Positions 1,779 through 29,191 of a stretch of DNA of 29,191 bases are shown here, piece after piece. The translations under genes and the position numbers were made by a program. The DNA is taken from IMG/VR virus record IMGVR_UViG_3300005613_000315, positions 1 to 29,191 of that record, one strand, 5' to 3'. This DNA is from a virus. How positions within the stretch are numbered: the first letter of the stretch is position 1; each line of letters starts with the position of its first letter. A model generated the notes under the pieces. The model ran no database searches. It was not told the origin of the DNA and saw only the letters and a program-made list of their open reading frames with translations.

Positions 1779-4025
1779 TTACGCTATAGTGTTAATTCTT
1801 GTATCACCAAGCAGTGTTGCAACCTCTCTTGGAGAGAAGTAACTTCCGTCTGGCTTCTTAATAGTAATATCTAGGTGTGTACCTCTACCAGCAGCAATCT
1901 GACTTGGAGTAAGGCCCTCGCCTGCTGATCCAAGCACTGTTCCAGTATTTCCCTGTTTTCCAAGCAATTGCCCTGGTCTTATGGTGTCACCAGGCTGAAC
2001 AGCTATTTCATCTAGATGACTGATCCACATTTCACTCCCATCTTGCAATTGCACCTTAACTTGGTTTCCAAAACCTCCATTTTGTCCTGCAAAAGTCACT
2101 TGTCCAAGAGTTGGAGATGGTACATCTACTCCCTTACCTCCCTCTAGAACAAAGTCTAACCCGTGTGGCCATGCACTTGACCCATCGATTCCAGTAACGG
2201 TCCCTGTGCCAAGCATGCTTAAGCTTGTTCTTCCATTGTCTAGTTTGTCTACCACGGACGAAATCTTCACTGGCTGAGAAAAAGACTCTTGCTCTAGGAT
2301 TCTGAGTAATTCAAACTCTTCTGCCTCTGGAAGATTTTCCTGTAATTGTAAAACCACATCTTCGTATTCTGGTCGATTATCAATCAAATCACTAAGAGAT
2401 CGATACGATTGATTTAGAGGTGAGAGCTTGACCTGCACTTCTGTAGATGCAACGTCAGCCCCTGGAGTTAGGTAAGTTCTGATAACTCGATCAGCTGGAA
2501 CACCAAAAGAAACTGCTTCATTTTCATAAAATGTAACTGCTTGAAGATAGTTTTGAAGCTTTGGCTCATAAATGTTTCGAGACTGTTTTACAAAATCCTC
2601 TCTTTGGGATTGCGTCAATCGCTCTCCAGAAGCAACTCTATTATACTGTGCTCTAATTCTTTCTGGGATGCTACCCGCGTTTTGTGCATTTGCGAACTCA
2701 CCCTCACGAACAACAGAGCCTGGATCAAGCATTTTCATGAAGCTAAAGATCAAAGACAGGTCACCTGCAGCTGAAGGTTCTGCTGCTGCAGCCTCGATTT
2801 TATCGTATGCATCACGAATATCAATGTATCCCTTAATATCTGGATCTGCAGCTGCTTCCTTTCTGAGTTTAAACAGTAGATCAGTCTGCTCCTCGTTTAA
2901 AGAACCAACTGTTCCCTCGGCGATACGTAACCCGTAAGCCTCACCCTTGGTTGTTCCAAATGGAACTCCTAGCGCCTTAGCATCGCTAATGCTGAGCAAT
3001 TTATCCATTTCAGACTTCTTTGGTTTGTCAAAAATAATATTCCCATCTTGGTCAATAATAGTCTGCCCCTCTGAAACAGAGAGAGTTTTTCTTTCTCCAG
3101 GCATTGAAGCTACAAAGTCACCAACGACTCCAGTTGCTTCTTCTAGGTTTTGTGCCCTAAACACCTGATTTGTAATTTCAGATCCTGCACCAGCTTGAGC
3201 CATTTGCAGTGCAATATCTGCTATTTGCTGTTCCCGATTTTCAGCACGCTCTATAGCACGTTTACGTTCTGCAAGCTGAAACTGCAACTCCTCCGCCTTC
3301 TTTTTATCAGCCCTGCTTAAATCTTCTTTATTAAACTCTAGTCCTAGCTGTAGCATCTGTATTTGTTGCTTGAGAGGCTCATATTTGACGTCTAAGGCCT
3401 GTTGTACCCTCTGTTGGGCTAAAGATAGGTTTCCTTGTAAAACAGACGCCTGAGCGGCTAATTGCAGACTTTGTACTGCTTTATCTCTTTGAGCACGTGT
3501 GAGCTGTCCTTGTACTATTGTTTTAGGTACTCCAGCCTCTTGTCCTGCAATTTCAATTTCTTTAGCTTGAGACTCAAGACCTAGAGCTTGGATCTGTCCT
3601 GCAATACCAGTTAGTTGCTCTGTAAGGTCTCTAACACCTTCTTGCTGTTCAAGTTGCTGTTTTGTAGCTCCCTGCTGACCTAAATCACGTACAGCCTCAA
3701 GTAGGTCACCTCTAAGAGAACCCCTTTCAGCCTCAAGCTGCTCTTGCTGTTGTGAAGGTGCGAAAAGCTCTGAAGTCCTCTGTTTAATCTCTTCTGCCAA
3801 TGCTTGTCCAGTTGGTACAGGTGTTGTTGGTTGCACTTCTGGCAACTTAACCTCTGGCTGTGGCTGAAGATCATCTGGTGTTAATTCAGATGGTGTTTGT
3901 TGATTAGCTAAACGAGCAGACACTTTCATGAAGTCACCTACGTCTGCCACGGTAGGCATACGTCCAAATTCTTCAAAGAAAGCCTGCTCCGTTGGTGTTT
4001 TAGTTGTGGTTTCTCCGTTAGCCAT
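1779..4025 (-). CDS. Virion protein with C-terminal M23-like peptidase domain
   Basis: 748 residues. About 40-290 is Gln/Glu/Leu-rich and strongly coiled-coil. About 300-560 is mixed and uncharacterised. The last ~130 residues form a LytM/M23-type beta domain: HGLDF at 621-625, ISHLDEI around H670, then a PGD...GQLLGKQGNTG core and THLDITI at 716-722. M23 enzymes cleave peptide cross-links of peptidoglycan, and a virion-bound copy would open the wall during DNA entry. Two metal sites look altered: the first motif has H-x2-D rather than H-x3-D, and the final HxH reads H717-L-D719. The starting context is AAATATGGC with no Shine-Dalgarno. It could alternatively be a tape-measure-like protein with a lysin tip. 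Confidence 0.7.
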   Translation of the reverse strand: MANGETTTKTPTEQAFFEEFGRMPTVADVGDFMKVSARLANQQTPSELTPDDLQPQPEVKLPEVQPTTPVPTGQALAEEIKQRTSELFAPSQQQEQLEAERGSLRGDLLEAVRDLGQQGATKQQLEQQEGVRDLTEQLTGIAGQIQALGLESQAKEIEIAGQEAGVPKTIVQGQLTRAQRDKAVQSLQLAAQASVLQGNLSLAQQRVQQALDVKYEPLKQQIQMLQLGLEFNKEDLSRADKKKAEELQFQLAERKRAIERAENREQQIADIALQMAQAGAGSEITNQVFRAQNLEEATGVVGDFVASMPGERKTLSVSEGQTIIDQDGNIIFDKPKKSEMDKLLSISDAKALGVPFGTTKGEAYGLRIAEGTVGSLNEEQTDLLFKLRKEAAADPDIKGYIDIRDAYDKIEAAAAEPSAAGDLSLIFSFMKMLDPGSVVREGEFANAQNAGSIPERIRAQYNRVASGERLTQSQREDFVKQSRNIYEPKLQNYLQAVTFYENEAVSFGVPADRVIRTYLTPGADVASTEVQVKLSPLNQSYRSLSDLIDNRPEYEDVVLQLQENLPEAEEFELLRILEQESFSQPVKISSVVDKLDNGRTSLSMLGTGTVTGIDGSSAWPHGLDFVLEGGKGVDVPSPTLGQVTFAGQNGGFGNQVKVQLQDGSEMWISHLDEIAVQPGDTIRPGQLLGKQGNTGTVLGSAGEGLTPSQIAAGRGTHLDITIKKPDGSYFSPREVATLLGDTRINTIA

Positions 4026-9755: not shown

Positions 9756-9783
9756 AGTATAACAAATATTCACATCATGTCAA
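9756..9783 (-). promoter_or_regulatory. Late promoter before neck gene
   Basis: On the - strand TTGACA (9783-9778), a 16-base spacer ending TTTGT, then TATACT (9761-9756). It overlaps the last codons of the upstream glycosyltransferase gene. The spacer end and box sequences match the promoter at 18689-18716 closely. Confidence 0.75.
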
Positions 9784-10729
9784 CAGCTTTTTTAAACATT
9801 TTTAAATACTGCGGTGTCAATGCTTCCCAGCTTATACTTTCTGCATATTCACGTGACTGCTTACTGTGCTCTACTATATCCATCTTAGCCACCTCATCAA
9901 CCTTCTTAGCTATATCTTTTGGGTCAACGTCGTAAAGATCAATAACACAATAATCCTGCACCTGCTTGTGACCACTGGGCTCGACCAAAAACTGACAGAA
10001 TTCATTGAATGGCTGTCTGTTTGTGGTTATCACAGGCATGCCACTTGCCATAGCCTCTTGAATGGGTAGAGACGTAGCCCGAAACTTTTGTGGTAACACA
10101 AAAACATCACCTTCAGCCCAAAGTTCCCAATAATTTTCCACAATCTTATGCCTAAACTCCACATTTTTTGGGATATCTAGGTTAAGTTTCTTTTGACTGT
10201 TAACAATAAGCTTAGAATCTGATTCAACATAGTGAAACGCTTCAATCACCTCTTTTGTACAGTTTGCACCCATAAGACCTAAAGTCCCAGCATTGTGTAG
10301 AAACGTTTTTGCTTTCTTGCGCTGCTTAAACTTGATCAGGTTTGTATTGACAGGGTCAGGTATCAAGACTTTGTTATTCTCCCTAACCTTATCGAAGTTC
10401 AAAGAAGAGGAACAATGAAACAGGGTCGGGGAGTATCCAACACTCGACGGTAGAAACTCGAAATTGACCTTCAAGATTGTTGCTATGCTTTTTTTGCGAC
10501 ATAACTTAAAAGCTAATGGATAGTAAAGCTCCAATACTATAAGCAAATCTAAACCCTCAACAAACTTCTCTATATGTCTATCGGGGTCGTCTACATACAA
10601 GGCCTGTCTAAACTGCCTTCTATCACTGCGCACACACATAAGACGGTCAATGTCGAAGTGACGCATGTACTCCTCAGTCAAAACACCCAAACCTTTGTGA
10701 TTGTCTTTTCCTATCAAACCAATCTTCAT
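9770..10729 (-). CDS. Glycosyltransferase, GT-B fold (family 4-like)
   Basis: 319 residues. GT-B architecture: an N-terminal Rossmann-like half beginning MKIGLIGKDN, and a C-terminal half carrying the donor-binding signature LPIQEAMASGMPVITTN at about 221-237 with E225 and a second acid near E243. Such enzymes move a sugar from a nucleotide donor to a glycan or protein. The start overlaps the preceding TGA as ATGA. It is the last gene of the modification cassette and is followed by a promoter and terminator for the neck gene. Likely substrates are virion glycoproteins or host surface glycans, which the sequence cannot distinguish. Confidence 0.85.
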   Translation of the reverse strand: MKIGLIGKDNHKGLGVLTEEYMRHFDIDRLMCVRSDRRQFRQALYVDDPDRHIEKFVEGLDLLIVLELYYPLAFKLCRKKSIATILKVNFEFLPSSVGYSPTLFHCSSSLNFDKVRENNKVLIPDPVNTNLIKFKQRKKAKTFLHNAGTLGLMGANCTKEVIEAFHYVESDSKLIVNSQKKLNLDIPKNVEFRHKIVENYWELWAEGDVFVLPQKFRATSLPIQEAMASGMPVITTNRQPFNEFCQFLVEPSGHKQVQDYCVIDLYDVDPKDIAKKVDEVAKMDIVEHSKQSREYAESISWEALTPQYLKMFKKAVDMM

Positions 10730-11256
10730 ACCCTCTCAAAGAATGCTAGTTGTGCTTTTTTATCTATTTCTAGTGTTTTCAGTCCTGAAAGCTCTATATC
10801 TTTCTCTTTGATCTCCACACCCCAGTCATGTGTAATAATAATGTCCCCAGACTTAAGCTTATCCGACAATGCGTTAAATTCAATGATCTTATTACCATTG
10901 TCACAAAAAAGTATCGTCTTTCCCTTCTTAGAGCATTCCTGAGCAATCTCATCTAAATTAAATAGGATATCTTTTTGTCTAAAGTACTGATCAAAGTTGA
11001 GCAACTTTTTAAGATTCGACGGCTCATAATCAACAACGTCATAGGTAATAAACTCCGCATCACGTTCCATGCACCATAAAAGGAAGTAGAGACTCAAATT
11101 ACCAGTAAAGGTACCTAGCTCAATGATTCGAGCAAAGTCATACCCCGAAAGCATGTTGTCTATCGTATAGATAAACCTTGGGTGCTGGTTTACGTGATGC
11201 CCAAAAAGACATGAGTGGTTAGAAGTCCTGTAGTCATTTCTATTAAATTTTTTCAT
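10726..11256 (-). CDS. Class I SAM-dependent methyltransferase-like protein
   Basis: 176 residues using the ATG at 11256. A longer open frame exists but would overlap the upstream methyltransferase by 149 bases. The fold cue is IIELGTFTGN at about 44-53, a motif I variant (E-x-G-x3-G), followed by DAEFITYDVVD (acidic end of strand 2) and KSGDIIITHDWG late. The last motif and overall length resemble the CmcI/cephalosporin-hydroxylase-like methyltransferase group found in sugar clusters. It overlaps the gene before by 14 bases and the gene after by 4, so translation is coupled. Probably O-methylates a sugar intermediate (inference). Confidence 0.65.
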   Translation of the reverse strand: MKKFNRNDYRTSNHSCLFGHHVNQHPRFIYTIDNMLSGYDFARIIELGTFTGNLSLYFLLWCMERDAEFITYDVVDYEPSNLKKLLNFDQYFRQKDILFNLDEIAQECSKKGKTILFCDNGNKIIEFNALSDKLKSGDIIITHDWGVEIKEKDIELSGLKTLEIDKKAQLAFFERV

Positions 11257-11695
11257 ATATCGTTGTTTGCCAATGTCCAGTCTTCCCCATTTTGTAAGGA
11301 TTCCTGCGGCCATAACCCATAAAGTCATGTCTCTTAAGATGTTTTGCAGCCTCATGAGCCTCGGCGTAGCGTGGACGTTCTGAATTATCAAGAATAAGAA
11401 AGTTATTGAAGTGGCCTAGTGCATGCTTGAAGCATTCCACCCTTCTTCTACCATCAACAACAATTATGTCGTAATTCTTAGTAAGAGGATGAATATATGC
11501 TTCACTCTCTAAAAACTCAAAATTGGCTCCTGTGCGCTCTGCCCACTCTTTATCGTGTTCTATACTCTCAACCTCATAAAACCTCTTAAAAAAGCTTGTA
11601 GAGGCTCCTGCACCCCACTCAAACATCGTCTTACTACCCTTGTCGTTTGCCATCAGCCAAATTAGGGATTCATATGTTAACCACGGTATCTCCAT
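11243..11695 (-). CDS. Small class I methyltransferase-like protein
   Basis: 150 residues. Motif I reads MFEWGAGASTSFF at about 24-36 (E-x-G-x-G-x-S), followed by VESIEHDKEWAE (acidic strand 2) and DIIVVDGRRRVEC at about 74-86. FLILDNSERPRY follows. This compact pattern occurs in methyltransferase-like proteins encoded in O-antigen and capsule gene clusters. It overlaps the sulfotransferase gene by 19 bases. Substrate unknown, and a glycan or sugar-linked residue is likely from its neighbours. Confidence 0.65.
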   Translation of the reverse strand: MEIPWLTYESLIWLMANDKGSKTMFEWGAGASTSFFKRFYEVESIEHDKEWAERTGANFEFLESEAYIHPLTKNYDIIVVDGRRRVECFKHALGHFNNFLILDNSERPRYAEAHEAAKHLKRHDFMGYGRRNPYKMGKTGHWQTTIYEKI

Positions 11696-12267
11696 AGGTT
11701 TTTATCAATAAATTTATTGGTCATAGCAGGGTCATAATTAATATCTGCAAACTCACACAGTCTTTTCATCTGCTCATCAGGTTTTTTAAACCAATCCTCA
11801 AACTGTAGCCTTATAAACTGTTCACCACGTATTATTTTTTCTATAGCTGCATGCGTCCTTTCGATTCGCTGTCTTGCATCCTTATCAGTAAGAGATGAGT
11901 TGATTGCATTTTGTATTGAACGGATCTGATCCTCAATAATACGCTCGCACACAATAAACTTCACATCATCCAAGTATGGGGCAAAGTATTTGTATTGAAA
12001 AGTAAGCCAAGGCGGATTCTTCATACCCCATTTCTCTGTTTTTAACTCTTCTACTATTCTATAAGCCTCTAAGTACCGCTCATCCTCATCAAATCCATTT
12101 ATGTGATTTTGAAATGTCTTAAGAAGCTCATCTTCAAAATAACCATATGGATTTATCACATGACCACCACGAAAAGTGGAACCCATAGATATGCCGTTTT
12201 TGTGGAGTATCCTCCCAACTAGGGAAGTGCCTGATCTACTGTCTCCTAAGATGATAAATGTTTGCAT
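11677..12267 (-). CDS. Sulfotransferase-family protein
   Basis: 196 residues. The N-terminus MQTFIILGDSRSGTSLVGRI contains the 5'-phosphosulfate-binding loop (GDSRSGTSL at 8-16). Further on, VKFIVCERIIEDQIRS carries the 3'-phosphate-binding Arg and Ser (R109, S117) with the family's eight-residue spacing. Sulfotransferases move sulfate from PAPS to hydroxyls of sugars or tyrosines. The PAPS must come from the host, since no synthesis genes are present. The protein is short for the family but keeps both cofactor motifs. It overlaps its neighbours by 19 and 22 bases in a tight operon. Sulfation of a virion or cell-surface glycan is the likely outcome. Confidence 0.75.
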   Translation of the reverse strand: MQTFIILGDSRSGTSLVGRILHKNGISMGSTFRGGHVINPYGYFEDELLKTFQNHINGFDEDERYLEAYRIVEELKTEKWGMKNPPWLTFQYKYFAPYLDDVKFIVCERIIEDQIRSIQNAINSSLTDKDARQRIERTHAAIEKIIRGEQFIRLQFEDWFKKPDEQMKRLCEFADINYDPAMTNKFIDKNLWRYRG

Positions 12268-13097
12268 AGATCTTCAACTCTTCGGTCATAAGTGTAATTT
12301 CCACACTCTATGAACTGCTCAGCCCTAAGATATTCCCTCTTATTAACATTTTCCAGGTAATAATCAATAAGATTACGCAGAGCGTCAAAATCATTGTGAG
12401 GAAAGGTTGGAACTGTATCAAACTCTTCCTCAAACCCCTTAACTTCTGGATGAATAAGAAAACCTCCACGCCCTGTCACTTCATACGCCCTATTACTCCA
12501 ATAATGTGGAGAAGGGACACTATCACCTACGACCACCTTTACTTGAGCAAGTTTCTTGTTCAAATTAATACCACGAGTATTATGGATGTGCAGAAAATTG
12601 TAGTTTTGCTTTAAGAACCTAAACAGTTCTTTTCTATGTTCATAGTGCGCACTACCAACAAAAGCTACATCGTAGCCCTTAACGCATTCAAACTTTTTGT
12701 ACTCTGGTGCGTGTATACCTTGGCGCAAAGTTTCATGTGAAACACCTATTGACTCCCATTGTTTCTCGTGACCTCCATCTGTAGTAAACACATAATCTGC
12801 CTTCCACATACTCTGTTTTTCCACATTCTTGCGCCAACCCCAATACAAATCAAAAAGCCAGCATACAGACGTAGTGCCGACTTTCCTAGCAGTCTTAATT
12901 GCAAGATCAAAAGCTGGTGGCGTTTTTGTAAAAAGAAGAACATCGTATTTATTCCTTGAAAGCTCACTTGATACACCAGAAGCCCCGTAAGAATTACGTG
13001 GAAGACATTTAACTTCATGCCCTTGCTTTTTTAATGCGTGGGCTATCCAGGATTCTGTATTATGTGGGCCAAATGAGCCGTAGTAAAGGAATTTCAT
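12246..13097 (-). CDS. Glycosyltransferase, CgeB-like GT-B
   Basis: 283 residues. It starts MKFLYYGSFGPHNTESWIAH, a GT-B first strand and loop. The middle has YDVAFVGSAHYEHRKELFRF (about 142-161) and the C-terminal half has RAYEVTGRGGFLIHPEVKGF (about 203-222, E206), the pattern of CgeB/DUF3880-type glycosyltransferases that act on surface polysaccharides and spore coats. The stop of the upstream GT2 gene overlaps its ATG by 4 bases. The acceptor is unknown. Confidence 0.8.
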   Translation of the reverse strand: MKFLYYGSFGPHNTESWIAHALKKQGHEVKCLPRNSYGASGVSSELSRNKYDVLLFTKTPPAFDLAIKTARKVGTTSVCWLFDLYWGWRKNVEKQSMWKADYVFTTDGGHEKQWESIGVSHETLRQGIHAPEYKKFECVKGYDVAFVGSAHYEHRKELFRFLKQNYNFLHIHNTRGINLNKKLAQVKVVVGDSVPSPHYWSNRAYEVTGRGGFLIHPEVKGFEEEFDTVPTFPHNDFDALRNLIDYYLENVNKREYLRAEQFIECGNYTYDRRVEDLCKHLSS

Positions 13098-14095
13098 TTG
13101 TGCATTCTCGTTTTGTGAGCTTTAAGTGACGCTGGAGTCTTGTACTCTTTGCTGCACTCATCACAGACATTGCCTGAGACCTCTTGTGTTGGCTTCTGAG
13201 GGGTTTTTGGCTCCACCTTGGGTGTTACAGCCTTTTTCTTCTCAACAAGCTCAAATCCTTGCAAAAGAGTGTCTTCTAGGTGCTTCCTTGGAATGGTGAC
13301 GTTCTTACCATCCTTTAGCCTTCTAACTACTACATATTCCATAGTAATTGCTTCTCTTAAGATCGGACGTTGCCTTGTCTTATTCAAACTTTCAAGCTCC
13401 GCCGACAGTTGATTTAATAACTTTTTCCTTTTAAAAATTGTTGGTTCATGATCTACCACCAAATCATCATAATATGCTCTGCTCATGCACTTTGCATCTG
13501 GATCATACCTATCATACCTAGCTGCCTTTCTTAGTCTGTCCTCTTTGAGCATCAATCCGTAGTGTTCTAGGTAGAATGGTGCATGCCAAGCATACTGGTA
13601 ACAAATAGGTGGGGCTAAGCCACAATGCACGTTCCTTTTAAGAAACTCCAGACCATGCTCAGGCATGTACTTGTAAAACCTCACGTTCCAAAACCTCTGT
13701 ATACCCTCACCGTGATAAAAGTGATCCTCATCGTTGTACAGATTCACAACTAGGAACTGGTAGGCTATTTCATCTGTATTTGCAAGCCTCTGTGCCTCTT
13801 TTCGATCAAACTCTGGTGGAAATACCTCATCACTGTCAATCGCTATAATCCAGTCAGGGTCGTACTTACCTACATACTTAAGCAGATCTGTTTTGATGTT
13901 AGGCTGGTGCTTTCCCCACTCTCGATCATCCCTATAAAAGTCAAAGCCAAATCCTTTTATTAAATCTTCCGTCTCTTTATCTGTGTTGTTACCAACAATT
14001 ACTACATGATCACACAGTCTCCTTAGTTCCTGTAGGCTCCTCTTTAGATACCTCTCTCGGGGCCCAGTAACCATTACGCCAACTATTTTTAACAT
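13094..14095 (-). CDS. GT-A glycosyltransferase (family 2-like) with C-terminal C2H2 zinc finger
   Basis: 333 residues. A GT-A domain occupies about 1-230, from MLKIVGVMVTGPRERYLKRS to the metal-binding DxD motif in WIIAIDSDEVF (D87, D89). Residues 240-285 form a charged linker domain (VVRRLKDGKNVTIPRKHLED), then a Lys/Pro-rich tether at 285-305. The end is a classical zinc finger: C311-x2-C314-x12-H327-x4-H332 with Y318 and L324 at the usual hydrophobic positions. GT-A enzymes transfer sugars from nucleotide donors. The finger may bind nucleic acid or a protein partner. A downstream ATG at codon 8 is possible, but strand 1 begins before it. The first 86 bases overlap the preceding gene. Confidence 0.85.
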   Translation of the reverse strand: MLKIVGVMVTGPRERYLKRSLQELRRLCDHVVIVGNNTDKETEDLIKGFGFDFYRDDREWGKHQPNIKTDLLKYVGKYDPDWIIAIDSDEVFPPEFDRKEAQRLANTDEIAYQFLVVNLYNDEDHFYHGEGIQRFWNVRFYKYMPEHGLEFLKRNVHCGLAPPICYQYAWHAPFYLEHYGLMLKEDRLRKAARYDRYDPDAKCMSRAYYDDLVVDHEPTIFKRKKLLNQLSAELESLNKTRQRPILREAITMEYVVVRRLKDGKNVTIPRKHLEDTLLQGFELVEKKKAVTPKVEPKTPQKPTQEVSGNVCDECSKEYKTPASLKAHKTRMHK

Positions 14096-18839: not shown

Positions 18840-20048
18840 TTAGATGTAGTCAGTTTGTCTTTTGGAAGCATAAGAGGTAGGTTCTAACATCCTCGAAAGG
18901 ACAGTTTTTAGTGGCATTTTGTTTAGTTGCCTTGGAGCTATCGAACTAACAGCATATCGCATAGCATCAAGTGCATGATCTAGTCCACCGTCAGGGACGT
19001 TCAGAGGTCTCTCATTGCGATCCACAGCCCAAAGGTAGTTCCTATATTCCTTAATTAGATTAATACTTCTCTTGGTAACCGATATCTTCTGATCCTGTAT
19101 TAGCTGAATACCTTGGTGCACACTATCCTTTCCTTTTTTTGCTCCTATAACCTGATGCCCGTACATACAAAGTTCGTCTATACTCTTCGGCTCCGCGCTA
19201 TCCGCCACTGTAAGTACCTTTTCTTGATTCTCCAAAAAGTCTGCAATACGCTTATTTGATAAACCCTTTTGATACAACAGCTCATCCACAACAAGGGAAT
19301 TATTATAAACGTACAGATCAACGATAGCGGTAGGATCATTAGTATAACCAAAGTCCAAACCACGTCTTTCCAATCTTGCTTCATGTGGTATTTCATCTAT
19401 TATTGCCCAGTTAGTGTAAATTCTTCCATCAACTTCACCTAACTGTCCAAGCCCGTATACTTTCCACCATGACGCCCTGTGCTGCCTTTGCTCAATTGCG
19501 TCTATGATCTGGGGTGAAAGCGCCTCATTGTCCTTATAGGTCAAAATAATGTGCTCTACGTCCGTTCTAGTAGCCTTAACCTCCGTATAAAACCAAAACT
19601 CGTTAGTAGGGTTCCAATCCATGAATACAAGCTCTTTGGTACGCACCTCTAGTTCTTCAAAAGCATTGAATGGAATATTGTTCGCCTCGTTAAGGAATAG
19701 ACGATCACGTCTTGCTCCCCTTAGCTTATCCCCACTGTCTGCTGAAAAAAACTCAATCTTGCTTCCAGTCTCAAATGTGTATGTACTGTACGTCTTATCC
19801 CAACTATCGTCCTGCCAGTATCCTTGTGCTTTTAGTATTGCCTCAAAATCTCTCATGGCTCCACGCTTCAGATGCGGAACTGACTCAGAAACCACAGATG
19901 TAAGCGTAGATTTCTTATCCGATTGGGCCATGTGAATCAAAACAAGCAAGATAGAAATGGTCTTAGAGGCTGATGTACCTCCCTGAACAGCCCTAATCTT
20001 ACCCTTCATCGCTAGCACCTTCTTTGTTGCCGTTGTCGCCGTAAACAT
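18840..20048 (-). CDS. terL: Terminase large subunit
   Basis: 402 residues, PBSX-like (Terminase_3 type). ATPase: P-loop variant QGGTSASKT (22-30), Walker B RLFLNEANN (116-124). Nuclease: GLDFGYTNDPTAI near 230, VADSAEPKSI near 287 and GGLDHALDAMRYA near 371 supply the metal-binding Asp residues. It cuts and pumps genome DNA into the procapsid through the portal. The start overlaps the small subunit by 50 bases. The ATG at 20048 is kept because the TTATKKVLAMKGKIRAVQGG stretch is typical of the family. The P-loop lacks the usual GK(S/T), having SKT, as is common in this subgroup. Confidence 0.93.
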   Translation of the reverse strand: MFTATTATKKVLAMKGKIRAVQGGTSASKTISILLVLIHMAQSDKKSTLTSVVSESVPHLKRGAMRDFEAILKAQGYWQDDSWDKTYSTYTFETGSKIEFFSADSGDKLRGARRDRLFLNEANNIPFNAFEELEVRTKELVFMDWNPTNEFWFYTEVKATRTDVEHIILTYKDNEALSPQIIDAIEQRQHRASWWKVYGLGQLGEVDGRIYTNWAIIDEIPHEARLERRGLDFGYTNDPTAIVDLYVYNNSLVVDELLYQKGLSNKRIADFLENQEKVLTVADSAEPKSIDELCMYGHQVIGAKKGKDSVHQGIQLIQDQKISVTKRSINLIKEYRNYLWAVDRNERPLNVPDGGLDHALDAMRYAVSSIAPRQLNKMPLKTVLSRMLEPTSYASKRQTDYI

Positions 20049-20400
20049 TTGCTAGTATTGGTTGAGGCATTTCCTTGCCCATCGTTGAATGATCTACCTT
20101 ATCCCTCCATCCAAATCTGTTCTTCATGTTCATGTACCAAAGTGTTGAATTGAAGTCTTTATTCTCTAAATTTACTCTTCCTTTCGTCTGCCACCATAGC
20201 TCTGAAAGTCGTAGTCCCTTTTTTATGGTCCGTAAGAATTCTGGATGATCTCTTTCCATTCGCTGCCTAGTTTTCTCGGAAATATCTAGTAAACCATGAA
20301 TCTCAGCCAGTGATGCACCTTGAGACATGTGTGTGATAACAAGCCCTTGCCAATCTTCTGGAAGGTCTTTGAGTGTCTTTTTAGGTCTTCCTGCAGGCAT
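19999..20400 (-). CDS. terS: Terminase small subunit
   Basis: 133 residues. Begins MPAGRPKKTLKDLPEDWQGL, then a helix-turn-helix of about residues 20-60 (MSQGASLAEIHGLLDISEKT), followed by KGRVNLENKDFNSTLWYMNM and KNRFGWRDK, the typical C-terminal signature of small terminases. It recognises the packaging start on concatemeric DNA and stimulates TerL. It starts one base before a TAG-linked context in the late operon and overlaps TerL by 50 bases. Confidence 0.88.
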   Translation of the reverse strand: MPAGRPKKTLKDLPEDWQGLVITHMSQGASLAEIHGLLDISEKTRQRMERDHPEFLRTIKKGLRLSELWWQTKGRVNLENKDFNSTLWYMNMKNRFGWRDKVDHSTMGKEMPQPILANVYGDNGNKEGASDEG

Positions 20401-20786: not shown

Positions 20787-20792
20787 GTTAAG
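20773..20792. promoter_or_regulatory. Candidate operator over the late promoter -35
   Basis: A perfect inverted repeat, CTTAACT-N6-AGTTAAG, covers the -35 of the late promoter and the stop codon of the initiator gene. A dimeric regulator bound here would block RNA polymerase, giving a simple way to hold late genes off. Confidence 0.6.
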
Positions 20793-21309
20793 ATGGAAGT
20801 TTGTAATAGCCTGGATCGATGGTTATGTTAGGATTACTAGCATCTACCCAAACTCCAAATCTTTTAACTGCTTGTGTTCCGTCTTCTAGGGTATACTTAT
20901 CCCCATCTTTAAAACCTTTTTTGTTTTTTTGTTCCCTAATACTATTTATATTACTATCTTCTAATACTATGTCGCGTTTAAATGCTACCCCCCTCGCGTT
21001 TAAACGCGCACCCCCTCGCGTTTTATTTCTACCCCCCCTGTATTTAAACGCTAGGGGTGTGGATATCTTTCTGTGAAATCCTTCAGCTATTTCTACCACT
21101 ATCCAGCCATCTTCTTCGAGCTCTTTTATGTACTTTGACATGATCCGATCACTTTTCCTACCAAGCTTTTTAGCTAAATATTTATTAGAGGCAGTACATA
21201 CGCCATTTTTATTACTGAGTGACATTATCAAACCGTAAAGCAATGATTTTGTTGGGTTGCCAGACTCGGCAAGCTCCGTTGGAATTATATAGAAAAAATT
21301 CTGCTGCAT
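20788..21309 (-). CDS. Replication initiator-like winged-helix protein containing an origin
   Basis: 173 residues. Residues 1-75 form a winged-helix domain of the HTH_36 kind: NPTKSLLYGLIMSLSNKNG, VCTASNKYLAKKLG, RKSDRIMSKYIKELEEDGWI. Such domains head phage replication initiators. About 88-112 is Arg/Gly-rich because the DNA below it carries four 22-bp repeats (iterons). The C-terminus (DGDKYTLEDGTQAVKRFGVW) is beta-rich. Like lambda O, it probably binds iterons in its own gene and recruits the host helicase. The ATG at 21309 follows a terminator hairpin in its leader. The protein could alternatively be mainly a transcription regulator. Confidence 0.7.
   Translation of the reverse strand: MQQNFFYIIPTELAESGNPTKSLLYGLIMSLSNKNGVCTASNKYLAKKLGRKSDRIMSKYIKELEEDGWIVVEIAEGFHRKISTPLAFKYRGGRNKTRGGARLNARGVAFKRDIVLEDSNINSIREQKNKKGFKDGDKYTLEDGTQAVKRFGVWVDASNPNITIDPGYYKLPS
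20890..20971. other. AT-rich segment next to iterons (candidate unwinding element)
   Basis: Rich in T and A with runs of T, and it contains two perfect copies of CTAATACTAT (20936-20945 and 20961-20970), 25 bases apart and separated by TTATATTACTATCTT-like sequence. An AT-rich region directly beside iterons is where lambda-like and plasmid origins melt. Confidence 0.6.
20972..21055. repeat. Four iterons with exact 22-bp spacing (candidate origin of replication)
   Basis: Units begin at 20972, 20994, 21016 and about 21038. The first two share TCGCGTTTAAA...CCCCC, the third TCGCGTTTT...CCCCCC, and the fourth keeps TTTAAACGCTA. The TTT core recurs at 20977, 20999, 21021 and 21043. Because 22 is not a multiple of three, the repeats cannot be an amino-acid repeat, so selection is on the DNA. 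The array lies inside the initiator gene. Confidence 0.8.
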
Positions 21310-21320
21310 ATGATTTAAAT

Positions 21321-21390
21321 AAAAAAGGCAACGTGTTGCGGTTCATCGAGCTTCCCAGCCCTTCCCATTTCTGGGACGCAACACACTGCC
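21321..21390 (-). terminator. Long terminator-like hairpin in initiator leader
   Basis: On the - strand a 14-bp stem (21390-21377 with 21340-21327, two G-U pairs, core GTGTTGCG/CGCAACAC) is followed by six T. A second hairpin, TCCCA-GAAA-TGGGA (21376-21363), begins exactly where the main stem's first arm ends. The T-run ends 11 bases before the ATG at 21309. Transcription from the promoter at 21431-21459 must pass it. Confidence 0.85.
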
Positions 21391-21430
21391 TTCTGTTTTC
21401 AAATTATTGGATATTCGATGAACTGTTTCT

Positions 21431-21459
21431 ATTATACCCCCTTGACCCTTACCAGTCAA
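21431..21459 (-). promoter_or_regulatory. Leftward promoter of initiator gene
   Basis: TTGACT (21459-21454), 17-base spacer, perfect TATAAT (21436-21431) on the - strand. It overlaps the rightward early promoter, with its -35 lying within that promoter's spacer. Confidence 0.85.
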
Positions 21460-21470
21460 TCGTGTATACT
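21442..21470 (+). promoter_or_regulatory. Rightward early promoter
   Basis: TTGACC (21442-21447), 17-base spacer, TATACT (21465-21470). It drives the + strand early operon starting at 21503 and overlaps the leftward promoter almost completely, so both cannot be occupied at once. Confidence 0.8.
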
Positions 21471-21502: not shown

Positions 21503-21664
21503 ATGGAAGAGCAAGAACTAATACGGCAGGCAATGTCTGCTATGGGGAAAAGATCGTGGGAAAAACAAAAGAAGACTCGGGATTCTGAGTTCTTTAGGCA
21601 AATGGTACAAAAGCGCTGGGAAAAGAAGAAGAAAGATACCAACGATAAGTTATCCACAGACTAG
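21503..21664 (+). CDS. 53-residue basic protein, first early gene
   Basis: Begins MEEQELIRQAMSAMGKRSWE and ends KLSTD. Twelve Lys and four Arg, wholly helical in character (EFFRQMVQKRWEKKKK). It is the first gene after the rightward early promoter and its operator. There is no clear Shine-Dalgarno. It could be a small DNA-binding regulator, perhaps autoregulatory, or a host-takeover peptide. No family recognised. A perfect DnaA box overlaps its last codons. Confidence 0.6.
   Translation: MEEQELIRQAMSAMGKRSWEKQKKTRDSEFFRQMVQKRWEKKKKDTNDKLSTD
21650..21658 (+). promoter_or_regulatory. Perfect DnaA box
   Basis: TTATCCACA, identical to the high-affinity E. coli-type DnaA box, near the 3' end of the 53-residue gene and 10 bases before the -35 of the second early promoter. 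A near-match lies at 21470-21478 on the other strand. A role in replication or in timing early transcription is possible. Confidence 0.55.
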
Positions 21665-27286: not shown

Positions 27287-29191
27287 TTATATTGCTGTTC
27301 TACTTATCTCTCTCCATGTACTACCATCGTACACAAGAGTGAGGGTGTCGTTTGCTGTTGCTGCAAAGTCAAGCGACGCCGCTAATAAAAGTGAAGCACC
27401 TGTACCTGCAGTATTATGCTTCACGGTCACAGAACCATCAAATTGAAGTGTTACAACTGATCCTGATTGCCAATTTGTTGCTGCTATTGTATTTATCTGA
27501 GTAGTACCCGTTATATCGAAATAATTACCATCTCCAAGTGTGATATTGTTAGCACTTGCCACATCAGAACCCTTTAGTCCTTGTATGCGTTTTTGAGCAA
27601 CGATATCTTCGGTTAGTTGGAAAAAGCGCTCATCATAAGCATATTCTTCCAGGATATCAGTACCAAACGTGATATTACCTCCAAAATCTGTGTCTGTGAG
27701 GTAGGTGGTAGAATAAGAAATACGAGCATCCTGGTCGATGTTAGTCAAAGAAAAGTTGATAGTTTGCATGTCAATTACCGCTCCAGTGTGGGCGTATACA
27801 CCATACTCAGCATTAGAAAACGTATATGACTTCCCTGAAAACGAACTCCAGTTAGAGTTAAAACTAACAATTACACAACGATTTGATGCTGTTTTAGCAC
27901 CCATATCAATGACAAGGGTTGAATTGAAAGAAGAATAACTTACCCCGTCACACAGTATTCCCCCAAATGCACCTCCAGATCGTCCATTAAGTGTGATAGT
28001 GCGTGTACTTCCAGTTCGGATAATACATCCACGTTGCAGTGCCCAACCATAAGTTCCAAAATCATTGAAGGTTAGACTCTGCTCCACATCCATGTAAGTG
28101 CCACTCGCTAAAATAATACCGAAACTACCAGCATCATCATAAGAGGTCAAAACAGAATCACCGTCATTGTTAGCTAGAAAGTTAACTACAGCATTGTTTT
28201 GAGCAGCTATACAAACATATGTCCCATCAAATAACACATACTCAAACTCTAAATGACTAGAGTCTGCGAGAACACCATATAGGGCGTTTTCAAAAGAAAT
28301 ACCTGTTACAGTCACGATTACACCTTTGGCACCATGACTTAAACCAATATTACTGAACTGACCACCAGCATCAAGAGTTACATTGCTAGGCGTTGTAGCG
28401 TTCCCCTCAATACGAAGAGAACCAAGATAACTCTCAGGAATAGTTAGCTGCTCTGTATATGTCCCGTCTGCAACATCGATTGTTACAGCACCTACAGTTA
28501 ACAGTTCTGCCGACTCGTTGATGGCCTTCTGAATGGTAGCGTATGGGCTAGAAGAGGTACCGTCACCCGTCACATCACTACCTGTAGTGGCCACATAAAT
28601 TGTTTGAGACTCTGTAAACACATTGGGAAGATAATCACCAGAAATGGCAACGTTCGTCACTCCAGAAGATTTTGTGACAGATACCCCTGAGCCAGTAAAA
28701 TTAATATTGCTCGCATCAGTGGTAATAAGTGCACCATCATCCTTAATGACAAGACTCTTACCCTTTGTGATGTTTTGAATTAGAGGTTGTGGTAGGTTCT
28801 TAATTGAACTAGCATCAAGCATTTCTTGCCCCTCAAGAGATTGGAGCTTATCTCTTACTTGCGCTGCGGTTATCTCGTCTCCATCTTTTCCATCTTTTCC
28901 TGGGCTTCCGTCCACTCCGTCTCGACCATCCATCCCAGGTTCTCCTGGATCTCCCTTATCCCCTTTAGGCCCCATAGGCCCTGCTGGACCAATGTCCCCC
29001 TTCTCTCCTTTAGGTCCTTGCGGTCCTGGCTCTCCTTGCTCACCCTGTGGACCAACTTCACCGTCAGCACCATCTATCTTCATGGCCACAGCATCCTCTA
29101 CAAACTCACGTGTAGCACCTAATTCTTCGCTTATTTTAGACAATTCCTCCTCTGTTTTATCCATAAGATCAAGTAAGACCTTCTTCGGATC
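27287..29191 (-). CDS. Collagen-like, beta-helix tail fibre (5' end at window start)
   Basis: Full protein 652 residues with the N-terminus at 177-1. After an N-terminal helix comes a collagen-like run of G-x-y triplets (about 60-120, for example [19 protein letters not shown]), then a linker and a pectate-lyase-like right-handed beta-helix that starts at [20 protein letters not shown] and [10 protein letters not shown]. The C-terminus is a small beta domain ([20 protein letters not shown]). Collagen-like runs trimerise fibre shafts, and a beta-helix at the tip binds or cleaves surface glycans. Stop TAA at 27289-27287 is followed by the next gene's ATG after one base. Confidence 0.8.
29069..29191. 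repeat. Terminal direct repeat, right copy
   Basis: Exact copy of bases 1-123. Removing one copy leaves a circle of 29,068 bp and restores a 652-residue fibre gene across the joint. Confidence 0.95.

Follow-up and report, generated by a model that had tools for sequence, protein, structure and literature searches.

The 29,191-nucleotide stretch of DNA analysed here (the window; IMG/VR record IMGVR_UViG_3300005613_000315, positions 1 to 29,191) comes from a small bacterial virus (phage) and contains, inside a minus-strand gene at 20788-21309, an array of four 22-base-pair (bp) repeats (20972-21059) adjoined by the least stable DNA of the genome. The 173-residue protein encoded by this gene is very probably (at a probability of about 0.88) a phage replication initiator whose own gene contains the replication origin. 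This reading draws on the array and its non-random nature, on the family to which the protein belongs, on the unstable segment, on a minimum in nucleotide skew and on the conservation of the layout among relatives. A preliminary description of this DNA, made from the letters alone, had likewise proposed an origin of iterons plus an AT-rich segment inside an initiator-like gene; the skew, the layout in homologues and the match to an initiator family support that proposal. Because positions 1-123 of the window are identical to positions 29069-29191 (i.e., an exact 123-bp direct terminal repeat), the window most likely represents an entire phage genome (29,068 bp), and local signals can therefore be ranked genome-wide.

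The array has the top tandem-repeat score of the window (83, at period 22), and its TTT cores occur at 20977, 20999, 21021 and 21043, that is, at the places and the 22-bp spacing first described. As 22 cannot be divided by three, each copy is read in a different frame from its neighbours, which places the signal in the DNA rather than in the protein. Two null models, in each of which the protein was kept fixed over 20,000 trials, express this quantitatively: identity at a lag of 22 (33 of 44 positions) was matched by none of the 20,000 resamplings of synonymous codons and by none of the 20,000 permutations of synonymous codons within the gene. Hence the array is neither a chance event nor a by-product of the protein sequence, and the earlier claim that the spacing does not come from a protein repeat holds. 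The cores of units 1, 3 and 4 lie near the palindrome GCGTTTAAACGC, dyad symmetry being clear in those three of the four units only, and G-runs separate the cores. That all four repeats face one side of the DNA, as had been suggested, is nearly but not exactly so, 22 bp amounting to about 2.1 helical turns. A search of the window for a second copy of the iteron motif (such as occurs in SPP1 oriR) yielded just one site, with three mismatches.

Adjoining the array is the AT-rich stretch noted previously, with AT content of 79% over 20915-20970 and two perfect copies of CTAATACTAT, at 20936-20945 and 20961-20970. By nearest-neighbour energy, the least stable 50-bp window of the complete genome is 20920-20969; the corresponding 60-bp window begins at 20910. 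Both fall within or at the AT-rich segment, and among 100-bp windows the site ranks third. Within the gene, the least stable 50-bp window begins 1 bp beyond the end of the array. GC skew had been named beforehand as a check on the origin: the detrended cumulative minimum of the complete genome is found at 21,162, within the initiator gene.

By its sequence the protein belongs with the winged-helix proteins of the HTH_36 family (PF13730) and is of the phage replication-initiator type. Residues 19-70 match PF13730 at 1.5e-10 (41.1 bits, against a curated cut-off of 25), and phrog_270, 'replication initiation protein', is matched over residues 3-98 at 1.2e-13. Structure prediction from the single sequence was poor, with a predicted local distance difference test (pLDDT) score of 41, and the model was rebuilt using relatives; the resulting AlphaFold2 model, based on 31 sequences, predicts a winged helix confidently over approximately residues 1-85 (pLDDT block means of 76-96 over residues 1-80), with stretches of low confidence at residues 102-133 and 158-173. 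Thus the gene does begin with a winged-helix domain, as had been described. That no known initiator is closely similar to the protein, as had been stated, holds for the full length, over which phage and plasmid homologues are 20-29% identical to it, but not for the winged helix, which falls within a known initiator family (PF13730, phrog_270). Among the solved winged-helix structures that match the model is 4pt7_B, a RepA N-domain whose chain title is 'Structure of initiator' (Z 8.0, root-mean-square deviation 3.0, 85 aligned residues); a structural Z of 8.0 is common and indicates fold, not function. A sequence search of solved structures matched only apparent designed proteins and was not used.

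A homologue that kept the protein sequence and lost the repeat spacing would speak against an origin. The comparison was based on 80 relatives in viral contigs, which were found by conserved winged-helix peptides (i.e., the repeats played no part in choosing them) and which form 31 clusters at 70% identity; lags and stability were counted over 31 genes, namely the window gene and 30 cluster representatives, one truncated representative having been left out. Directly after the winged-helix codons the best lag is 22 in 17 of the 31 genes and 23 in another 6. Over the lags from 13 to 40, the mean z reaches 2.48 for a lag of 22 and 1.83 for one of 23, and stays between -0.73 and 0.64 for the rest. 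An array at p<=0.05 is present in 21/31 initiator clusters versus 5/87 other open reading frames (ORFs) of the same contigs; when a lag of 22 or 23 is required as well, the counts are 13/31 and 1/87. Repeat units vary between clusters yet are similarly built, with half-sites round an A-rich centre and often with G- or C-runs, and in 25 of the 31 genes the least stable 50-bp window starts between -35 and +40 bp from the end of the array. Hence the period and the position of the array are usually kept as the repeat sequence diverges, and a layout in which winged-helix codons are followed by 22-23-bp iterons and then by unstable DNA is, by these counts, usual among relatives, though not universal. 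One homologue, from a human-faecal phage (L089, positions 3260-3400; MT835558.1), carries three in-gene units round GGGGGTCTCCGCAAAATTG followed by AT-rich DNA, a build like that in the window, and a DnaB-like gene, recognised by eye, adjoins it.

The neighbours of these relatives are likewise informative. Ten adjoining genes, picked for looking like replication genes and so indicative of context, not of frequency, all proved to be such (10/10 tested): five encode DnaB-like helicases, three DnaC-like loaders and two primase-helicase-type proteins. Several homologues in phage records are annotated as replication proteins and are followed by DnaC, DnaI or DnaB genes; some relatives have no recognisable helicase, loader or primase-helicase gene directly adjoining. 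Such a neighbour is treated here as a frequent companion, not a defining feature, of PF13730-type initiators.

We infer from this arrangement the activity of an origin, together with iteron binding, melting and helicase recruitment. The N-terminal winged helix would bind the four partly palindromic 22-bp iterons, probably as dimers aligned along almost the same face of the helix; this assembly would strain and open the adjoining AT-rich segment (20915-20971), to which the host replicative helicase would then be brought. Because no phage helicase or loader was recognised, recruitment is assigned, as a guess, either to host factors or to the roughly 40-residue C-terminal tail. The array would at the same time code for a flexible linker joining the two ends of the protein, and initiator and origin would thus travel as one cassette. 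A more specific version is advanced tentatively, as somewhat doubtful: this may be a minimal phage replicon, in which the initiator consists of a winged helix, a linker whose codons form the origin and the short tail, the phage supplies neither helicase nor loader, the tail recruits the host helicase directly, and a hairpin in the leader of the gene sets the amount of initiator.

Several observations weigh against an origin at this site. In 3.3% of cases a synonymous shuffle is no more stable than the real gene at the AT-rich site, so part of the instability there follows from the protein sequence. Gene orientation switches at the skew minimum, which for that reason supports, without proving, an origin; moreover, skew at third codon positions (0.195 for the left minus-strand genes, -0.003 for the plus-strand genes and 0.040 for the right minus-strand genes) gives no clean two-fork picture. 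Among the genes scanned with Pfam and PHROGs (several ORFs lay outside the scan) no DNA polymerase, helicase, helicase loader or primase was recognised. No close relatives of the whole protein were found in viral contigs or bacterial genomes, nor any relatives of the C-terminal tail taken alone, and in about one third of the clusters the test used revealed no significant array.

The repeats might instead be operator sites, the winged-helix protein being a transcription regulator that represses its own gene from within and has no role in replication. The partial palindromy of the units would suit this, as would the predominance of transcription regulators among the solved winged-helix structures that match the model and the strong-hairpin leader, which suggests that the gene is regulated. 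Yet the sites lie 250-340 bp inside the gene, directly adjoining the least stable DNA of the genome; the family matches are to replication initiators; and this layout is found again in relatives, where the adjoining genes that were tested encode helicases or loaders. Since initiators may also repress themselves, the operator and origin roles are, in any case, compatible, and regulation to the exclusion of replication is judged improbable.

It is considerably less probable that the repeats are a packaging site (pac or cos-like) recognised by the small terminase. This gains some plausibility from the terminase genes (small and large subunits, recognised by Pfam and PHROGs at 18840-20400), which lie downstream on the same strand, the start of the small terminase gene being about 0.6 kb from the repeats. 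Relatives, however, keep the array inside a winged-helix gene that has replication-gene neighbours wherever these were tested, and the terminase relatives of this phage have no comparable winged-helix gene nearby; among 48 terminase-relative records searched whole, 3 hold an HTH_36 gene elsewhere (inspected as translations only). Least credible of all is a functionless relic or neutral duplication within a fast-evolving linker, a notion that accords with the low confidence predicted for the encoded linker (as expected for disorder) and with the degeneracy of one of the four units, but that fails to account for a period and place kept in most relatives despite differing repeat sequences, or for the lack of the period signal in control ORFs.

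An initiator gene that contains its own iteron origin is a known kind of replicon, as in lambda O, SPP1 gene 38, 80alpha gp20 and the rep gene of plasmid pPR9; this phage adds a member, and what is unusual here is the shortness of the protein, the lack of a detected helicase or loader and the place of the gene at the head of a packaging operon. The lambda O gene has four annotated iterons with starts 20, 24 and 23 bp apart; like those of the window, they are of the inverted-repeat type and lie downstream of the part of the gene that encodes the DNA-binding region. Nevertheless, the iteron sequence and the protein length differ, a direct BLASTP comparison of the window protein with lambda O gave no match, and the 'O-like' PHROGs are matched weakly (1.5e-4 and 2e-4) and over the winged helix only. 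The term 'lambda-like' in the preliminary description is apt for the architecture (four in-gene iterons and AT-rich DNA). No lambda P-like helicase partner was recognised among the genes scanned; a small unrecognised protein could serve.

In SPP1, oriL within gene 38 consists of direct repeats and an AT-rich unwinding element and is bound by gp38 (G38P) (PMC6316719). By this published description the in-gene direct repeats adjoin an AT-rich unwinding element as in the window; SPP1 encodes its own loader (gp39) and helicase (gp40), proteins of kinds that went unrecognised among the scanned genes of the window phage. In 80alpha, ORF20 and ORF21 suffice for autonomous replication, ORF20 being proposed as a replisome organizer that bears the origin in its gene (PMC5499656). 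Its putative origin is annotated as starting 235 bp inside the gene, which matches the position in the window gene, whereas gp20 has 256 residues, is followed by a DnaC-like loader, shows no significant overall similarity to the window protein, and is encoded by a gene whose strongest lags are 15 and 30, versus 22 in the window.

Plasmid initiators provide a further comparison. The rep gene of pPR9 encodes a pfam13730 N-domain that has been compared to a phage replication protein, and the pPR9 mini-replicon is capable of autonomous replication; in pSK41, which is of the RepA_N type, the origin boxes lie centrally inside rep and encode a dispensable linker, and the N-domain is a winged helix (PMC5703833). 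The window protein shares the pfam13730 N-domain with pPR9 Rep but has a short tail where pPR9 Rep carries a C-terminal domain almost the same as the one in pSK41 Rep, which binds host primase. With the RepA_N initiators it shares a central, linker-encoding origin (here a proposed one) within the gene and a winged-helix N-domain, to which the match between its model and 4pt7_B also points; it differs from them in lacking the long C-terminal domain and in that RepA_N (PF06970) is not among its Pfam matches up to E = 1.

More generally, because the layout is kept in most of the clusters while the repeat sequence changes, a single gene could reveal the origin in many uncultivated phages, and comparing protein-site pairs across relatives could teach rules of recognition. 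A gene and origin that move as a portable cassette would also fit the published occurrence of a phage-like domain in a resistance-plasmid initiator (pPR9).

Table 1. Features of the initiator gene and its surroundings (positions in the window)
Feature	Position	Strand	Remarks
Initiator gene, 173 residues, winged-helix replication initiator	20788..21309	-	ORF; PF13730 1.5e-10; phrog_270 1.2e-13
N-terminal winged-helix codons (about residues 1-83)	21061..21309	-	AlphaFold2 with 31 sequences; structure matches
Iteron 1 (coding-strand order)	21038..21059	-	CACCCCTAGCGTTTAAATACAG; core 8/12 positions self-complementary
Iteron 2, degenerate	21016..21037	-	GGGGGGTAGAAATAAAACGCGA; core 4/12 positions self-complementary
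Iteron 3	20994..21015	-	GGGGGTGCGCGTTTAAACGCGA; perfect 12-bp palindrome core, 12/12 self-complementary
Iteron 4	20972..20993	-	GGGGGGTAGCATTTAAACGCGA; core 10/12 positions self-complementary
AT-rich segment, proposed DNA unwinding element	20915..20971		Holds both CTAATACTAT copies; adjoins array
C-terminal tail codons (about residues 133-173), possible host-helicase contact	20788..20914	-	Mostly low model confidence
Initiator-gene leader	21310..21460	-	Promoter-like site 21459-21431; strong hairpin and T-run just before ATG
Exact DnaA-box consensus TTATCCACA	21650..21658	+	Outside gene, about 0.6 kb from iterons; sole copy of this 9-mer in genome

The initiator gene is the first of a leftward operon that runs into the packaging genes: it is followed by a gene for a 92-residue protein without a significant family match to Pfam or PHROGs and then by the terminase subunits, and a divergent set of small rightward genes starts at 21503. 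In its leader, the promoter-like site (TTGACT-17-TATAAT) precedes a very stable three-way-junction hairpin (z -4.8), and a T-run comes directly before the initiator ATG. The hairpin looks like a terminator or attenuator; a search of Rfam returned sub-threshold microRNA models only, which were taken as chance matches, so that no family fits.

Elsewhere, the genome encodes a major head protein, tail fibre-like proteins and an M23 peptidase domain. A 'DNA polymerase' PHROG match on the tail-fibre gene is confined to its collagen-like part. No near DNA match to window positions 1-25,000 was found among phage records, and no close relatives of the capsid protein were found. Between the head and tail genes (9770-14095) lies a cluster of genes that by eye resemble those for glycosyltransferases, methyltransferases and sulfotransferase-type enzymes. 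The 164-residue product of 22444-22938 matches no family; its end, EEVKLEDIPF, is similar to the acidic tails found on single-strand DNA-binding proteins. The product of 23398-23772 matches a RusA-like Holliday junction resolvase (phrog_244, 9.5e-15) and, weakly, a phage PDDEXK nuclease.
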